Assembly: GCA_022508285.1 (NCBI GenBank)
Contig: JAFLVN010000005.1
Span: 1-64,000, forward strand
Direction: 5' to 3'
Source of the DNA: Clostridiales bacterium
GTDB lineage: Bacteria; Bacillota; Clostridia; Christensenellales; Borkfalkiaceae
DNA length: 64,000 nt
Position 1 is the stretch's first letter, and every line of letters starts with the position of its first letter. The position numbers were made by a program, and so were the translations under genes. The notes under the pieces are model-generated. The model made no database searches, was not told the DNA's origin, and saw nothing but the letters and a program-made list of their open reading frames with translations. This document shows, piece by piece, positions 228 to 54,208 of the stretch.

Positions 228-1448
228 TTGACACAACAAACTAATACAACAAAGACGGACAATTCCATAGCGCTGTTGCTCGAATCGATGCAAAAGCAAA
301 ACGAACTATACGAGCAGGTGATAACGGGGTTGCTCCCTAAAACAAGCAAGAAGAAGGTTGGAAATCGTCGGAATGTGCTGAAATTCACAAAAAAGGAGAT
401 TTCACAGATGCCGGCAAAATATGCAGGTGCCTTTGCGGTGAACGAAATGGTTGTGTACTACCGCTTAAAAGATCGCGGTGTGTACGAAGCGAGATACCAT
501 AAAGGTGGAATACACATTGAAGTTTCATCCAAAGACGTCAAAGTTCTAAAAGAAAAATTTATCGAAAAACTAACTCACTACGAAGAAAGTCAAAAGCAAA
601 AAGAGCGTGACCCCAACGTCAAACTGTTCAAGGAGTACGCCGACGAGTGGCTTAATATCAAGCGCGTGACGACCAAGGAATCAACATACAGGGAATACGT
701 GCGAATGTTAGATAGAGACATACTGCCCGTGTTTGGCGAGATGCCCGTAACGGAAATCGACAGAAGCGCATTGCAGAACCATCTCTTAACCTACATTGAC
801 AGGGGCGTTCTGCGCATGGCACACAAGATTCACTTGATGCTCAAGTGTATCTTCGACATGATTGCGGATGACTACAACATTCCCTCGCCGATGAGAAAGG
901 TGGTCGTGCCGAATTACGAAAGCAAGCACGGCACGGCGTTTACCTACGAGGAGGAAAACAGGCTTGTCAATCATTGCCTTGCAAACCTCAAAAAAGACGC
1001 CTCTCACGCCTATCTCGTGCTCTTATACGCAGGACTGCGAAGAAGCGAGCTTGCGAGCATAAACGTCATTGACGGCACGTGGCTCGAATGCGAGACGAGC
1101 AAGGAGCGCATGGGCAAGAACGTTGTAAAGCGCAAGATACCGTTTACACCGATGATGAAGAAGGTGCTGCCGTATATCGACTTTGAAAAGGCGAGGCGGG
1201 CGAACCTGAACACATTGCAGACAACCTTGCGGCGACTCTGCCCGGGACACCATCCCCACGAGTTGCGGCATACGTTTATCAGCCGTTGCAAAGAAGCGGG
1301 AGTTACGAGCGAGGTCGTAAGCATTTGGGCGGGACATTCCCTAAGCGGCACGATTACGACGACGGTTTATACGCACTATTCGGAGGAGTTTCAACTGCGC
1401 GAGGCTGAAAAAGTTGACTATCTGAAGTTGGACATCGGGGGAAAATAA
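228..1448 (+). CDS. Tyrosine recombinase / phage-type integrase
   Basis: C-terminal HPHELRHTFISRCKEAGV...IWAGHSLSGTITTTVYTHY catalytic signature; TTG start after aggag. Confidence 0.93.
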   Translation: MTQQTNTTKTDNSIALLLESMQKQNELYEQVITGLLPKTSKKKVGNRRNVLKFTKKEISQMPAKYAGAFAVNEMVVYYRLKDRGVYEARYHKGGIHIEVSSKDVKVLKEKFIEKLTHYEESQKQKERDPNVKLFKEYADEWLNIKRVTTKESTYREYVRMLDRDILPVFGEMPVTEIDRSALQNHLLTYIDRGVLRMAHKIHLMLKCIFDMIADDYNIPSPMRKVVVPNYESKHGTAFTYEEENRLVNHCLANLKKDASHAYLVLLYAGLRRSELASINVIDGTWLECETSKERMGKNVVKRKIPFTPMMKKVLPYIDFEKARRANLNTLQTTLRRLCPGHHPHELRHTFISRCKEAGVTSEVVSIWAGHSLSGTITTTVYTHYSEEFQLREAEKVDYLKLDIGGK

Positions 1449-1453
1449 GGGTT

Positions 1454-1585
1454 TGTTCCCAAGGTTGTTCCCAAAAAAGGAAGAAAAACGAGGTGGTTTG
1501 CTACCACAAACCACCTCATATACCCCCGAAAATAAGCCTCAAAAAGACTATCTGTTCCCAAATCTGCTCCCAAATTGCTCCCAAA
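1454..1585 (+). promoter_or_regulatory. Two clusters of TG(T/C)TCCCAA repeats (1454, 1466; 1553, 1565, 1576) around a 10-bp-stem hairpin; candidate integrase arm-type sites
   Basis: Five near-identical 9-mers at 11-12 bp spacing between the int stop codon and the tRNA 3' end; hairpin AGGTGGTTTG-ctacca-CAAACCACCT at 1491-1516. Confidence 0.5.
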
Positions 1586-1666
1586 TCGGGAAAAAAAGTG
1601 GTTAAAATGACCTTATGGTGAGTCAAGCGTGTGGACAGAAATGAGTAAAGGTATCAAAATCAGCAT

Positions 1667-1711: not shown

Positions 1712-1786
1712 TGGCTGGGGCGAAGTGATTCGAACACCCGAATGACGGAGTCAGAGTCCGTTGCCTTACCGCTTGGCGACGCCCCA
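1712..1786 (-). tRNA. tRNA-Gln (anticodon CTG)
   Basis: Reverse complement TGGGGCGTCGCCAAGCGGTAAGGC AACGGACTCTGACTCCGT...GGTTCGAATC-type T-arm...CGCCCCAGCCA; encoded CCA. Confidence 0.95.
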
Positions 1787-1790
1787 ATAT
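1750..1790. repeat. 41-bp direct repeat, copy 1 (tRNA-Gln 5' half plus 4 bp)
   Basis: Identical to 4499-4539. Confidence 0.95.
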
Positions 1791-2016
1791 GCTGTTAACG
1801 AAGTGTATTATAGCACTGCTTGCGGAAAAAAACAAGCAATTTTAATACGCTTTGCAAAAATAGAAAAAGTTTTAGTACGCCAAAAGATAACCAAAAGGTT
1901 GCCGAATGTAAAACCGCGCAGACATTTGCCCGCGCGGCGCACTTTTTTAAAATTTTTCGATTTTTAGTGAGTAAAATCGACTCTTTATCCGTTATAATTA
2001 TAGTAGGAGGCTTAAA

Positions 2017-2568
2017 ATGAAAGATTGCGGTGTATCCGGACACCGTTTTCTGCAAGGAAATTCTACGGGACTTGAAGAACTCGTCAGCAACTACGGCGAT
2101 TCTCTCGTAAGGTTCGCATACTGTTTTCTCGGGGATTCTTTTACAGCGGAGGACGTCATGGAAGATGCGTTCGTAGCGCTCATCGCCAAACGAAAGACGT
2201 TTGAAACAAGAGCGCAGTGCAAGGCGTATCTTTTTAAAATTGCACGGAACAGGTGCATAGACGTTTTGCGCGCCCGAAAGTATACGATGCCTCTCAAAGA
2301 CGATATCCTAAACGTCCTTGATAGTTCCACCCCCGAGGATGATGTGTGCTTTTCGGACAGGAACAAAGTACTCTACCGCTGTATCCAGGCCCTCCCCGAT
2401 GGGTACCGCGGAGTGCTCGACCTTGTCTATTTCGAGGGCTTTTCCGTGGCGGAGACGGCGAAAATCTTACATAAAAGCAAAAAGCAGGTCTACAATCTCC
2501 TCTCCCGTGCAAAATCGCAACTAAAACAAGTTTTAATAATGGAAGGTATTGACGATGAAAACTTCTGA
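2017..2568 (+). CDS. Sigma-70 family (ECF-like) RNA polymerase sigma factor
   Basis: Sigma-70 region 2 (FAYCFLGDSFTAEDVMEDAFVAL) and region 4 (LPDGYRGVLDLVYFEGFSVAETAKILHKSKKQVYNLLSRAKSQLK). Confidence 0.9.
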   Translation: MKDCGVSGHRFLQGNSTGLEELVSNYGDSLVRFAYCFLGDSFTAEDVMEDAFVALIAKRKTFETRAQCKAYLFKIARNRCIDVLRARKYTMPLKDDILNVLDSSTPEDDVCFSDRNKVLYRCIQALPDGYRGVLDLVYFEGFSVAETAKILHKSKKQVYNLLSRAKSQLKQVLIMEGIDDENF

Positions 2569-4414
2569 AGAGCGCACACAGCACATTCTTGAAAAAACAA
2601 AAAAGCAGGAAGCTTTAAAACGCAGGAAAAGAGTAAAATGGATTTCCATCGCCTCGGGCGCTCTGGCACTGACTCTTGTGTTTGTATTTTCCTTCACTCT
2701 CTTCAACCCGTCTACGGAGACCGGCAACCCTAACGACTACGCCCTTTTGGCAGAAAAAATCGACGAAATCCGAAAGCGGTCCGACTCCGGCAACACCGAT
2801 CAAGATCCCAACGGTGGTAGCGATAGTCCTTCTTCAGATTGGTCTGGTGGAACAGGTCCGGCGGGCGATCAGTACGTCGAGGTGACGAACAATCAGGTCA
2901 GCGGCATTGTCGAGGCAGACGTCTTCAAGCGTAGTAACAACTATATTTTCTACCTCTGCTATGACTTCGGTAAGGATAAGTATGAAAACGGAGGCTGGGT
3001 GGACATCATTGCTCCGTACTATTTTCTCAGAGTGTATTCCATTGCAGGGAAAAACAGTGCGCTCGTCACCGAATTTAATATTCCAGCAGCGGAGGGATTC
3101 CGTTACGGTAGTTATTTCTCGTTTATTATGTACCTGAGTCAGGACTGCAGCACCATCACAATCACTGCCCCCTGCCGTGACATTGAACAGGACGTTTATT
3201 ATACCGAGGTCATCAGCATTGACGTCTCCAACCCGCGCGCGCCGAAAGAAATCGGGAGAACATACGTCTCTGGCATCTATAAATCCTCGCGCATGGTGGG
3301 CGAAACTCTGCTCCTTGCAACCAATTTCACTGTGAAATATAATTGCGACTTTAAAAATCCAGAAGACTACGTCCCAGCATACGGTGATTTAATGCAAAGG
3401 TCACTTTTAACGATGAAGGACATCTATCTGCCCGAGAATGCAAATACGGCGGAGTATACTGTGCTCGCCTCCATCAATGCAAAGACGCTCGCGATCAACG
3501 ATGCATCGGCACTCTTCTCCTACACGAGCGATATTTACGTCTCCGAAAACTATCTGTTCGCAACCTATACGGCAGACGTTGACACCGAAATCGCATTTTT
3601 CGACTATGATGAGGACAGCCTCAACTTCTGCGGCACGATCGCCGCAAAGGGCACGATCGTCAATCAGTACAGCATGGACGAATCCGATAACATTCTCCGC
3701 GTGTTTACGACGAGCTTAAACGACAACAATGAATGTGAATGCAACCTGCAATGCTTCGACCTCGACACCTTTGAATTGATTGCAAGCGTGGAGAACTTCT
3801 CCGATCCGAACGAAGAGATCATGAGCGTGCGCTTCTACGGCGATACCGCCTACGTCTGTACGGCGATATTTATCCGTGAAGAACACATTGTTAACGATCC
3901 CGTGTTTGAGTTCGATCTCTCCGATTATGACAATATCACCTGGAAGGACACAGGCACCATCCCCGGCTATTCCCTCTCCCTCGTGGGATTCACGGACGGA
4001 ACGCTCCTCGGCTTCGGCTATAACGACAGTGAGGACACCCTCAAGCTCGAACTTTACCGCACGGTTGCAGATTCGGTGGAGTCGGTCGCAGCGTATATTG
4101 CGCCCAATACTACCTTCCCGGACGATTTCAAAGCCTACTTTATCGATGCGGAGAACGGGCTCATCGGGCTGGGGATCAAGTACGAATATGAGCGCTTCCG
4201 CTACGTCGATCAGTATCTCCTGCTCCGCTATGACGCTGAAACGCAGTCGATTGAAGTTTTGTACACCTTCGAACTTTTCAGCGACGGTTATCCCAACGAC
4301 AGCACGGTCGTCATATACGGCGGGCATACCTATACAACAACATTGCGCGGATGCTTTATCGACGGATATTTCTATCTTATCGGAAAACACGATTTCCAAA
4401 TCCTTGAATTTTGA
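2555..4414 (+). CDS. Membrane-anchored C-terminal beta-propeller domain protein; possible cognate regulator of the sigma factor
   Basis: Cytoplasmic basic N-terminus, one TM helix (WISIASGALALTLVFVFSFTLF), large extracytoplasmic domain resembling the beta-propeller family of COG4880; start overlaps the sigma gene 3' end. Confidence 0.7.
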   Translation: MKTSEERTQHILEKTKKQEALKRRKRVKWISIASGALALTLVFVFSFTLFNPSTETGNPNDYALLAEKIDEIRKRSDSGNTDQDPNGGSDSPSSDWSGGTGPAGDQYVEVTNNQVSGIVEADVFKRSNNYIFYLCYDFGKDKYENGGWVDIIAPYYFLRVYSIAGKNSALVTEFNIPAAEGFRYGSYFSFIMYLSQDCSTITITAPCRDIEQDVYYTEVISIDVSNPRAPKEIGRTYVSGIYKSSRMVGETLLLATNFTVKYNCDFKNPEDYVPAYGDLMQRSLLTMKDIYLPENANTAEYTVLASINAKTLAINDASALFSYTSDIYVSENYLFATYTADVDTEIAFFDYDEDSLNFCGTIAAKGTIVNQYSMDESDNILRVFTTSLNDNNECECNLQCFDLDTFELIASVENFSDPNEEIMSVRFYGDTAYVCTAIFIREEHIVNDPVFEFDLSDYDNITWKDTGTIPGYSLSLVGFTDGTLLGFGYNDSEDTLKLELYRTVADSVESVAAYIAPNTTFPDDFKAYFIDAENGLIGLGIKYEYERFRYVDQYLLLRYDAETQSIEVLYTFELFSDGYPNDSTVVIYGGHTYTTTLRGCFIDGYFYLIGKHDFQILEF

Positions 4415-4437
4415 TAAGACGGCATGAGAAAAGAAAT

Positions 4438-4479
4438 ACAGCATATCGTATGCGAATGAAAACGCTGTCGATATGCTGT
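4438..4479 (+). terminator. Hairpin downstream of the beta-propeller gene
   Basis: ACAGCATATCG ... CGATATGCTGT 11-bp perfect stem followed by an AT-rich run. Confidence 0.45.
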
Positions 4480-4498
4480 TATTATTATAAGGTGGGAG

Positions 4499-4539
4499 GT
4501 CAGAGTCCGTTGCCTTACCGCTTGGCGACGCCCCAATAT
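4499..4539 (-). pseudogene. tRNA-Gln 5'-half relic (41-bp direct repeat, copy 2), with promoter-like sequence retained upstream
   Basis: Exact 41-bp match to 1750-1790; on the minus strand TTGTTT-N17-TATAAT upstream, as for the intact gene. Confidence 0.9.
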
Positions 4540-4693
4540 TGATTGATTACTCAACCATTATAATTGCAATCCACAAAAAAAACAAGCAATTTTTACTAAG
4601 TTTTTTAATTTTTTAGTTTATAAGTCAAAGCCCTCATTTTATTTGAGACACAAAGTATTTGACATATATCAGTCCATCATTTAAAATTAAGGT

Positions 4694-51925: not shown

Positions 51926-54208
51926 TTACTTCCTCTTTCTGCGGAAAATTGCGCATATATCGAATTTTCCGAGATTTCTTAAAATTATCAGCGTTGTCAC
52001 TACTGCTGCAACAGCCAACCAGATGAACAGCGTCCACCACCAGCTGCCCACCGTATATATTATACTTGAAACGGTATACGAAGTTGCTACCCAGAACAAA
52101 ACCGTCCACTTGAACTTGCCCTTGGGAAGCTCCGCCTTAGCCGTGGCGCACGCCGCAAAGCAGGGGATTGTGGTCATGTTGAAGGCGATAAAGGCTATCA
52201 GAGCTGGGATTGTTATGCCCGTGTTCTGTATCATTATCACGGCTTCCTCTATGCCTTCGTCGGTGCCTTCAAAACCCGCCACTATGCATGCTGCGAGAGT
52301 CGCAAAGGTGGCTATTACGTTTTCTTTGGCGATAAGACCGGTGATTGCGGCAACCGCAAACACCCAACCCCAAGAGCCGAGCTGCGAGCCGAAGCCCAAT
52401 GGAGTGAACAGAGGTTGAATTAATTTGCCTACGGAAGCTAAAATCGAGTCCTCCATAGTCAACACTTCGCCAAATCTGCCGACCTTTTCGCCGTCGATAA
52501 ACTTCCAGTCCCAGGTTATGCTGGAAAGTAGCCATATAATTACCGTTGAAGCAAATATAATCGTAAACGCTTTCTTTATAAAGTGTTTGGTTTTATCCCA
52601 CAGGTGCAGCATCAGATTTTTGGAGCCGGGGAGATGATAGGCTGGCAACTCCATTATAAACGGAGGCGTTTCGCCCTTTAAGGTGGTATTGCGCATAAGC
52701 AACACTGCAATTATTGCCGTGCACACGCCCAAAACGTACATACCGAACGTTATAACGTCTGCGTTACCTACTCCGAATGCAGTTACTATGCCGCCCGCAA
52801 TGGCAGTGAGTATGGGAAGTTTTGCCCCGCACGAGAAGAAAGGAATTACTCTTATGGTTGCAGTCCTCTCCTTATCGTCGGCAAGAGTTCTCGTATTGAC
52901 CGTTGCGGGAAGGGAACAGCCGAAGCCCATAATCATGGGCATAAACGCCCTGCCCGAAAGCCCGAAGCGGCGGAAAATTCTATCGAGTACAAAGGCAATT
53001 CTTGCCATGTAGCCCGAGTCTTCGAGTATAGAGAAGAATAAGAACAACAAAAGTATCTGAGGCAGGAAGCCCAAAACTGCAAATATACCGCTCAAAATAC
53101 CGTCGCCTACAAGCCCCGTCGCCCATGCCGCGGCTCCGCCGTTCTCCATAGCCCCAACAATAACGTCAAGAAGCGAGCCGGTTGCAGCGTCTAATGCGTT
53201 AAAAAGAATTACGCCCGGTGAGAACACCGCCCCGTCGTAGAACACGGCAAGCGTTTGGGCAGCCCCGCCGCTGAGCCCAAGCTCCTCCACCGTGGGGAGG
53301 GGCGTACCCGCCGCATTCGCTATTGCGCCTATGTAAAACAGGTCTTCCGAGAACGTAAGGTGGAAAATAGCAAAGAGTACAACGACAAATATGGGAATAG
53401 CCCATATGCGGTGGGTTAAAACTCTGTCGATTTTGTCGGATTTCGTGAGCGCCTCCCTGTTGGCTTTCACTTTTGCCGTGGCGAGGTTTGAAGATATGTA
53501 TTTATATCTCTCGTCGGCGATTACCGCCTCCATGTCGGCACCCTTCGCCGCCTTTTCGAGCGCAGCTTTCGCTCCCTTCCTTTCAAGCTCTATTTCGTCG
53601 CTTTCAAGAAGTTTTATCGCATGGAACAGCGGTGACGACACGCCGTCCGCCTCGTAATACGCCCGAGCGACGGCTATTTCGCTTTTCAATGCGCTATCGA
53701 GAACAGTTGCGCCTTTGCGTGTTCCGGGCATTGCCGCAGCACGCTCCATGAGCTGTTTTATTCCCGAGCTCTTCAACGCCGAAATGGCAACCACAGGCAC
53801 GCCGAGCGCCTCTTCAAGAGCCTTTGCGTCAACCTTGTCGCCCACCTTTTCCACCTCGTCCATCATGTTGAGGGCGATAATCACGGGTACGTCCATTTCA
53901 AGGAGCTGTGTCGTGAGGTACAGGTTTCTTTCGAGATTTGTAGCGTCAACTATGTTTATTATGCCGTAGGGCTTTTCGTCGAGAATATAGTTTCGGGATA
54001 TGACTTCCTCGGGGGTGTAGGGTGAAAGGGAATATATTCCGGGCAAATCGACGATTGCCACATGTTCCTTGCCGCCCTTGTACACTCCCTCCTTTTTATC
54101 GACGGTTACACCCGGCCAGTTGCCGACGTGCGCCGTCGAACCCGTAAGGGCGTTGAATAGCGTTGTCTTTCCGCAGTTGGGATTTCCCGCAAGTGCAAAA
54201 GTTTTCAT
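51926..54208 (-). CDS. feoB: Ferrous iron transport protein B
   Basis: ALAGNPNCGKTTLFNALTG...VGNWPGVTVDKKEG G-protein motifs and multi-TM Gate domains. Confidence 0.97.
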   Translation of the reverse strand: MKTFALAGNPNCGKTTLFNALTGSTAHVGNWPGVTVDKKEGVYKGGKEHVAIVDLPGIYSLSPYTPEEVISRNYILDEKPYGIINIVDATNLERNLYLTTQLLEMDVPVIIALNMMDEVEKVGDKVDAKALEEALGVPVVAISALKSSGIKQLMERAAAMPGTRKGATVLDSALKSEIAVARAYYEADGVSSPLFHAIKLLESDEIELERKGAKAALEKAAKGADMEAVIADERYKYISSNLATAKVKANREALTKSDKIDRVLTHRIWAIPIFVVVLFAIFHLTFSEDLFYIGAIANAAGTPLPTVEELGLSGGAAQTLAVFYDGAVFSPGVILFNALDAATGSLLDVIVGAMENGGAAAWATGLVGDGILSGIFAVLGFLPQILLLFLFFSILEDSGYMARIAFVLDRIFRRFGLSGRAFMPMIMGFGCSLPATVNTRTLADDKERTATIRVIPFFSCGAKLPILTAIAGGIVTAFGVGNADVITFGMYVLGVCTAIIAVLLMRNTTLKGETPPFIMELPAYHLPGSKNLMLHLWDKTKHFIKKAFTIIFASTVIIWLLSSITWDWKFIDGEKVGRFGEVLTMEDSILASVGKLIQPLFTPLGFGSQLGSWGWVFAVAAITGLIAKENVIATFATLAACIVAGFEGTDEGIEEAVIMIQNTGITIPALIAFIAFNMTTIPCFAACATAKAELPKGKFKWTVLFWVATSYTVSSIIYTVGSWWWTLFIWLAVAAVVTTLIILRNLGKFDICAIFRRKRK

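Follow-up and report, generated by a model that had tools for sequence, protein, structure and literature searches.

A probable CIME-type cassette in the anticodon loop of a tRNA-Gln gene duplicates the 5′ half of the tRNA and carries no integrase

The window analysed here, a stretch of 64,000 nucleotides that starts with base 1 of contig C45 of a Clostridiales bacterium (genome G000), raises the question of how one half of a tRNA gene came to be repeated on the far side of two protein genes with no integrase among them. ARAGORN placed an intact tRNA-Gln(CTG) gene on the minus strand at 1712-1786, with a terminator hairpin on the same strand at 1674-1708. The 5′ half of this gene, together with 4 bp upstream of it (1750-1790, minus strand), recurs at 4499-4539 on the same strand as an exact repeat (41/41 identical positions, spacing 2,749 bp), which stops at the 3′ edge of the anticodon loop, since the loop CTCTGAC occupies 1756-1750. 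The exact identity, these limits and the duplication of the 5′ rather than the 3′ half had been described in an earlier note on this DNA, and all three were recovered, the limits being in agreement with the ARAGORN gene (1786-1712). No further copy of the 5′ half alone was found in the rest of the G000 assembly. The locus holds a regenerated tRNA gene and a displaced fragment, with the identity ending at a crossover subsite, and the duplicated half is the 5′ one instead of the 3′ half whose duplication marks ordinary 3′-half islands. In the reading developed below, the intact gene would be a composite of a 3′ half (1712-1749, minus strand) that adjoins an integrase element and a 5′ half (1750-1786, minus strand) that is the cassette's copy, the fragment at 4499-4539 being the relic of the original gene.

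Similarity between the two copies extends past the 41 bp in the form of a diverged promoter, a feature absent from the earlier note. A putative tRNA promoter on the minus strand (-35 TTGTTT, 17 nt, -10 TATAAT) lies beside the intact gene at 1807-1835 and again beside the relic at 4557-4585, with the TATAAT boxes at 1807-1812 and 4557-4562 and the TTGTTT boxes at 1830-1835 and 4580-4585; both are consensus matches. An 18-bp exact repeat, in register with the first, covers 1826-1843 and 4576-4593. The inner promoter would have come from the cassette, and the outer one would be the displaced promoter of the original tRNA gene.

The DNA between the repeats encodes, on the plus strand, an ECF-type sigma-70 factor of 183 aa (2017-2568; Sigma70_r2 and r4_2) and a membrane-anchored beta-propeller protein (2555-4414; PF09826 Beta_propel), and the two genes overlap, the propeller ATG lying at 2555 and the sigma stop at 2568. 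These domain matches agree with the content given in the earlier note, and no integrase gene, as would be expected of an autonomous island in the Islander sense, was found within 1750-4498. Among the 94 genomes of the genus, the sigma/propeller genes were present in eight and nowhere else directly beside tRNA-Gln, which contradicts the possibility, raised in the same note, that all relatives carry them at this site. Propeller genes were located 18-20 kb upstream of tRNA-Gln in G068, G073 and G104; neither window proteins nor a sigma gene had a match in the intervening DNA, and the position of these propeller genes was therefore taken as a coincidence. Neither protein matched the defence families of PADLOC, and no direct counterpart was found in the literature on beta-propeller/ECF/anti-sigma pairs.

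A genus-wide search of tRNA regions in the 94 genomes, with one genome per species compared, revealed a single other clear copy of the 5′ half alone away from a contig end. It belongs to G061 (record JAIDIR010000011.1, Clostridia bacterium SC0331_S16_2, labelled as a metagenome assembly), where the order of features is that of G000: intact tRNA, promoter, left end (LE), cargo, right end (RE), loop, 5′ half and second promoter. The cargo of G061 is unrelated to that of G000 and comprises a 160-aa integrase C-terminus, a small ORF, an ImmA/IrrE-like protease (PF06114) and an XRE-type regulator. The best matches of the integrase C-terminus (~55-60%) were integrases encoded beside tRNA-Gln; since this remnant is closest to tRNA-Gln-type integrases, the cassette family probably descends from, or captured, an integrase-bearing element. 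The HTH regulator and the protease (L100:5242-6141) match the CapH/CapP models of PADLOC, and the cassette holds no CBASS genes. To the left of the intact tRNA of G061 and just downstream of it (L100:7360-7420), an apparent degenerate second tRNA 3′ half with a terminator hairpin was also observed.

In G023 and G088, sister species of G061, the intact tRNA directly adjoins the sequence that flanks the G061 relic on its right, the flanks being 92% identical over 2.4-3.9 kb. The empty site that the earlier note had proposed to look for in relatives was in this way found for the G061 insertion, and the second intact tRNA-Gln in tandem that it had considered as an alternative is absent from both genomes. 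Because G023 and G088 have an empty site, the G061 unit can be read as a precise 2,299-bp loop-to-loop insertion; because G061 shares its anatomy and ends, the G000 unit, of 2,749 bp, is best assigned to the same family. This empty-site evidence concerns the G061 insertion, the comparison set of one genome per species being without a close relative of G000, and the assemblies of both G000 and G061 are fragmented.

The shared ends were then defined. The left end (1791-1913) includes tandem CCAAAAGGTWRCC repeats, and the tandem direct repeats CCAAAAGATAACC / CCAAAAGGTTGCC at 1880-1903 (plus strand) are candidate arm-type sites of an integrase. The right end (4431-4498) consists of a hairpin and GGTGGGAG abutting the loop. 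Identity between the G000 and G061 cassettes was about 80% for LE and 77% for RE without the loop, in comparison with 60% for the native flanks on the right and 73% for a single coding gene. Both genomes retain the RE hairpin (fold z-scores of -5.5 and -5.3), its upper stem showing a double change from C-G to U-A, and the hairpin is followed on the minus strand by a U-rich stretch; a simple terminator scan did not call it as a terminator. As judged from its sequence, the hairpin with the U-rich stretch could end transcripts from the displaced promoter. A third CCAAAAGGTWRCC-type site lies near RE in G061, and the CCAAAAGGTWRCC repeats could serve as arms for an integrase other than the resident one.

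Only two RE junctions were found across the 94 genus genomes and 399 family genomes, and a search of the GTDB collection with the RE junction returned G061 as the sole match. Outside the genus, the LE and RE patterns had no match in IMG/VR, and phage and plasmid searches with cassette-end queries gave matches confined to the tRNA part of the query. A weak match to the RE pattern in G068 was discarded, as its loop differs. Related promoters in G006, G084 and G097, considered as additional family members, had neither LE repeats nor a second 5′ half in the stretches read, and were therefore treated as native variants. In G059 the LE repeat motif lies beside tRNA-Gln with neither RE nor relic, at an indel relative to the sister species G058, so part of LE may be captured chromosomal sequence. 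The insert of G059 relative to G058 (L159:122-1974) starts with this motif and encodes a 493-aa XRE-domain membrane protein; it is a possible remnant of the cassette family.

On the other side of the tRNA gene, the window carries the tyrosine integrase that the earlier note had placed just outside the cassette (228-1448, plus strand). It belongs to a tRNA-Gln clade and looks intact, with the motifs GLRRSEL, HELRHT, AGHS and VYTHYS all present and in order and with matches to phage-integrase SAM-like, central and catalytic domains. Arm-like repeats TGTTCCCAA / CTCCCAAAT (1454-1590, plus strand) lie between this gene and the tRNA 3′ end. Relatives of this integrase, the nearest of them 71-77% identical, are found 3′ of tRNA-Gln and in the same orientation in many members of the genus.

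The tRNA-Gln(CTG) genes of the genus come in two alleles with strictly linked halves, GGGGC...GACGC and GGGGT...GACAC (30 C/G and 12 T/A). The G allele is the one present in the cassette of G000, and the A allele the one in that of G061; in both genomes the copy in the cassette is identical to the displaced relic and agrees with the host allele. Such lasting identity and tracking of the host allele would be unexpected for a relic inherited dead from an ancestor, and the insertions therefore appear recent and separate. In G105 a copy of the 3′ half (the equivalent of window positions 1712-1756) lies 25 kb from a full tRNA. These two sites (G105:C5:28239-28317 and 53305-53349; L112, L113) delimit a canonical 25-kb island on the 3′ side of tRNA-Gln, and the duplicated stretch includes the tRNA terminator, mirroring the promoter duplication of the 5′ cassettes. 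The 3′-half repeats (1712-1756 equivalents) and the 5′-half repeats (1750-1790) overlap solely in GTCAGAG, the seven loop bases, and for this reason the loop (1750-1756, CTCTGAC, minus strand), a putative 7-bp crossover, is the likely exchange region for both kinds of island. The anticodon loop has been described as a 7-bp overlap region (PMC8371274). Contig breaks at or near tRNA-Gln, base 1 of the window among them, are frequent in the genus, a pattern to be expected where populations vary in island content.

Three IMG/VR contigs (3300025013_000002, 3300025309_000054 and 3300025012_000288; L176-L178) were found to resemble the cassette in having a free 5′-half tRNA-Gln attachment site on the minus strand (L176:4067-4096, L177:4838-4867 and L178:5264-5293), with no 3′ half or tRNA gene and with the site bordered by GTCAGAG. 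On the tRNA strand it is preceded by a promoter-like sequence that resembles TTGACA-18-TAAAAT, as read by eye. A tyrosine integrase of 412 aa is encoded next to the site in L177 and L178, and L177 also carries a portal gene. These two phage contigs differ from the cassette in being autonomous, the end sequences of the contigs are unlike those of the cassette, and the L177 and L178 integrases showed no detectable relationship to that of the window. Attachment to the 5′ half of the same tRNA, the element providing the upstream sequence, has thus also arisen elsewhere.

These data make it probable that 1750-4498 is a 2,749-bp CIME-type element inserted in the tRNA-Gln(CTG) loop through exchange by a tyrosine recombinase. 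The anatomy of the locus, the conserved ends and the empty sites of the sister insertion carry this conclusion, to which the recombinase mechanism, the activity of the promoters and terminator, and the mobility of the G000 copy are added as what they suggest. The cassette has att-like ends on both sides and neither integration nor transfer genes, as CIMEs do. The unit would be laid out as [loop, tRNA 5′ half, tRNA promoter, left end], cargo and [right-end hairpin], and its attachment site as [RE]-GTCAGAG-[tRNA 5′ half, tRNA promoter, LE], in an orientation that would be the mirror of that of ordinary tRNA islands. Integration would split the host tRNA gene, keeping the host 3′ half and exchanging the 5′ half and promoter for those of the element, so that the original 5′ half and promoter would have been moved out to 4499-4585. 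The RE hairpin would then probably stop transcription from the displaced promoter, if that promoter is active. A 3′-type element would have to supply a 3′ half, whereas a 5′-type element would have to supply a 5′ half and a promoter. The family would move with differing cargo, a sigma factor and a beta-propeller in G000 and an XRE regulator, an ImmA/IrrE-like protease and an integrase remnant in G061, and the G000 member may have lost its integrase or be supplied with one in trans. More tentatively, we suggest a helper-dependent family of 5′-side tRNA-Gln cassettes, with a spare 5′ half, a promoter, an insulating hairpin and swappable cargo, for which tyrosine integrases, those of 3′-side islands for example, might act in trans, one tRNA being built from two mobile elements.

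Other origins of the repeat were weighed against this one. The most serious of them, although still unlikely, is that a larger unit, from an unseen 3′-half copy to the left of the contig start up to 4498, and comprising the entire tRNA with the integrase element on one side and the cassette on the other, was moved by the 228-1448 integrase. The integrase element does directly adjoin the tRNA, and accretion and co-transfer of CIMEs and ICEs have been described (PMC5704250), but no convincing arm-like CTCCCAAAT repeats of this integrase were found in the cassette ends, and G061 has no integrase in the 152 bp to the left of its tRNA, a weak argument since the contig ends there. The earlier note's proposal of one unit of a tandem island holds in the sense of a 3′-side integrase element and a 5′-type cassette abutting at one tRNA. 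Its alternative of an integron-like passenger, read here as a gene cassette taken up through the integrase next to it, fits the position of an integrase outside and a short cargo unit inside, and is nevertheless hardly credible: the repeats are tRNA halves, neither an attC-like site nor an integron-type integrase was found, the resident integrase is of phage/ICE type, from a clade found 3′ of tRNA-Gln across the genus, with scores against Xer/integron models far below the cut-offs, and there is one cassette only. What stands of the origin given in that note is the loop-site insertion with duplication of the 5′ half, well supported by the sister insertion and its two empty sites.

A tandem duplication of tRNA-Gln, the outer copy later losing its 3′ half and the sigma and propeller genes being ordinary chromosomal genes in between, is conceivable in a genus where two tRNA-Gln matches occur head to tail (G041:C1:6405-6572). 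We consider it very improbable, as the break falls at the identical loop base in two species and beside the same non-tRNA sequence, RE, and the pair of cargo genes elsewhere is never directly beside tRNA-Gln; the single tRNA without insert in the sisters of G061 largely refutes it. An assembly artefact, in which the 41-bp repeat let the assembler join a free circle or the DNA of another strain into an empty site, seems equally improbable. The assembly is fragmented and many contigs of the genus end inside tRNA-Gln, but an ordinary sequencing read is longer than 41 bp, the architecture is identical in two different genomes, and a free circle with such a junction would itself demonstrate mobility.

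Elements that keep att sites after the loss of integration and transfer genes are known as CIMEs (PMC5704250; PMC3146451). The cassette shares with them, including the Dehalococcoides ssrA islands that lack an integration module (PMC3146451), the att-like ends, the absence of integrase and transfer genes and the proximity, at one and the same RNA gene, of an element with an integrase. The Dehalococcoides example duplicates a 3′ end, whereas the cassette duplicates a 5′ half and promoter and is separated from the integrase by the tRNA. Attachment of the 5′ type is real and already known: in the Islander survey, 159 of 3,919 islands had a 5′ tDNA fragment (PMC4383910), displaced as here upstream of a regenerated tRNA, and the anticodon loop is a known crossover subsite. 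That survey required an integrase inside the island, which the cassette lacks, so integrase-less units were invisible to it. The pTN3-like archaeal integrases also use a tRNA 5′ half, an arrangement described as rarely encountered in bacteria (PMC8371274), and in both cases the recombinant tRNA takes the promoter of the element; in the archaeal elements this is the promoter of the integrase, and here a tRNA-type promoter in a bacterial unit without integrase. What is new is the combination of features: a 5′-half cassette family without integrase, whose ends are conserved while its cargo changes, set against a 3′-side integrase element at one tRNA.

Nearly all mapped tRNA islands restore the 3′ half of the gene, about 4% restoring the 5′ half in the Islander survey. 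Whether an integrase is able to recombine a mirror-image site can be tested cleanly on the cassette. If mobile, cassettes of this kind put a tRNA gene under a mobile-element promoter, and they may carry regulators, such as the ECF sigma factor and membrane propeller of this genome, between species.
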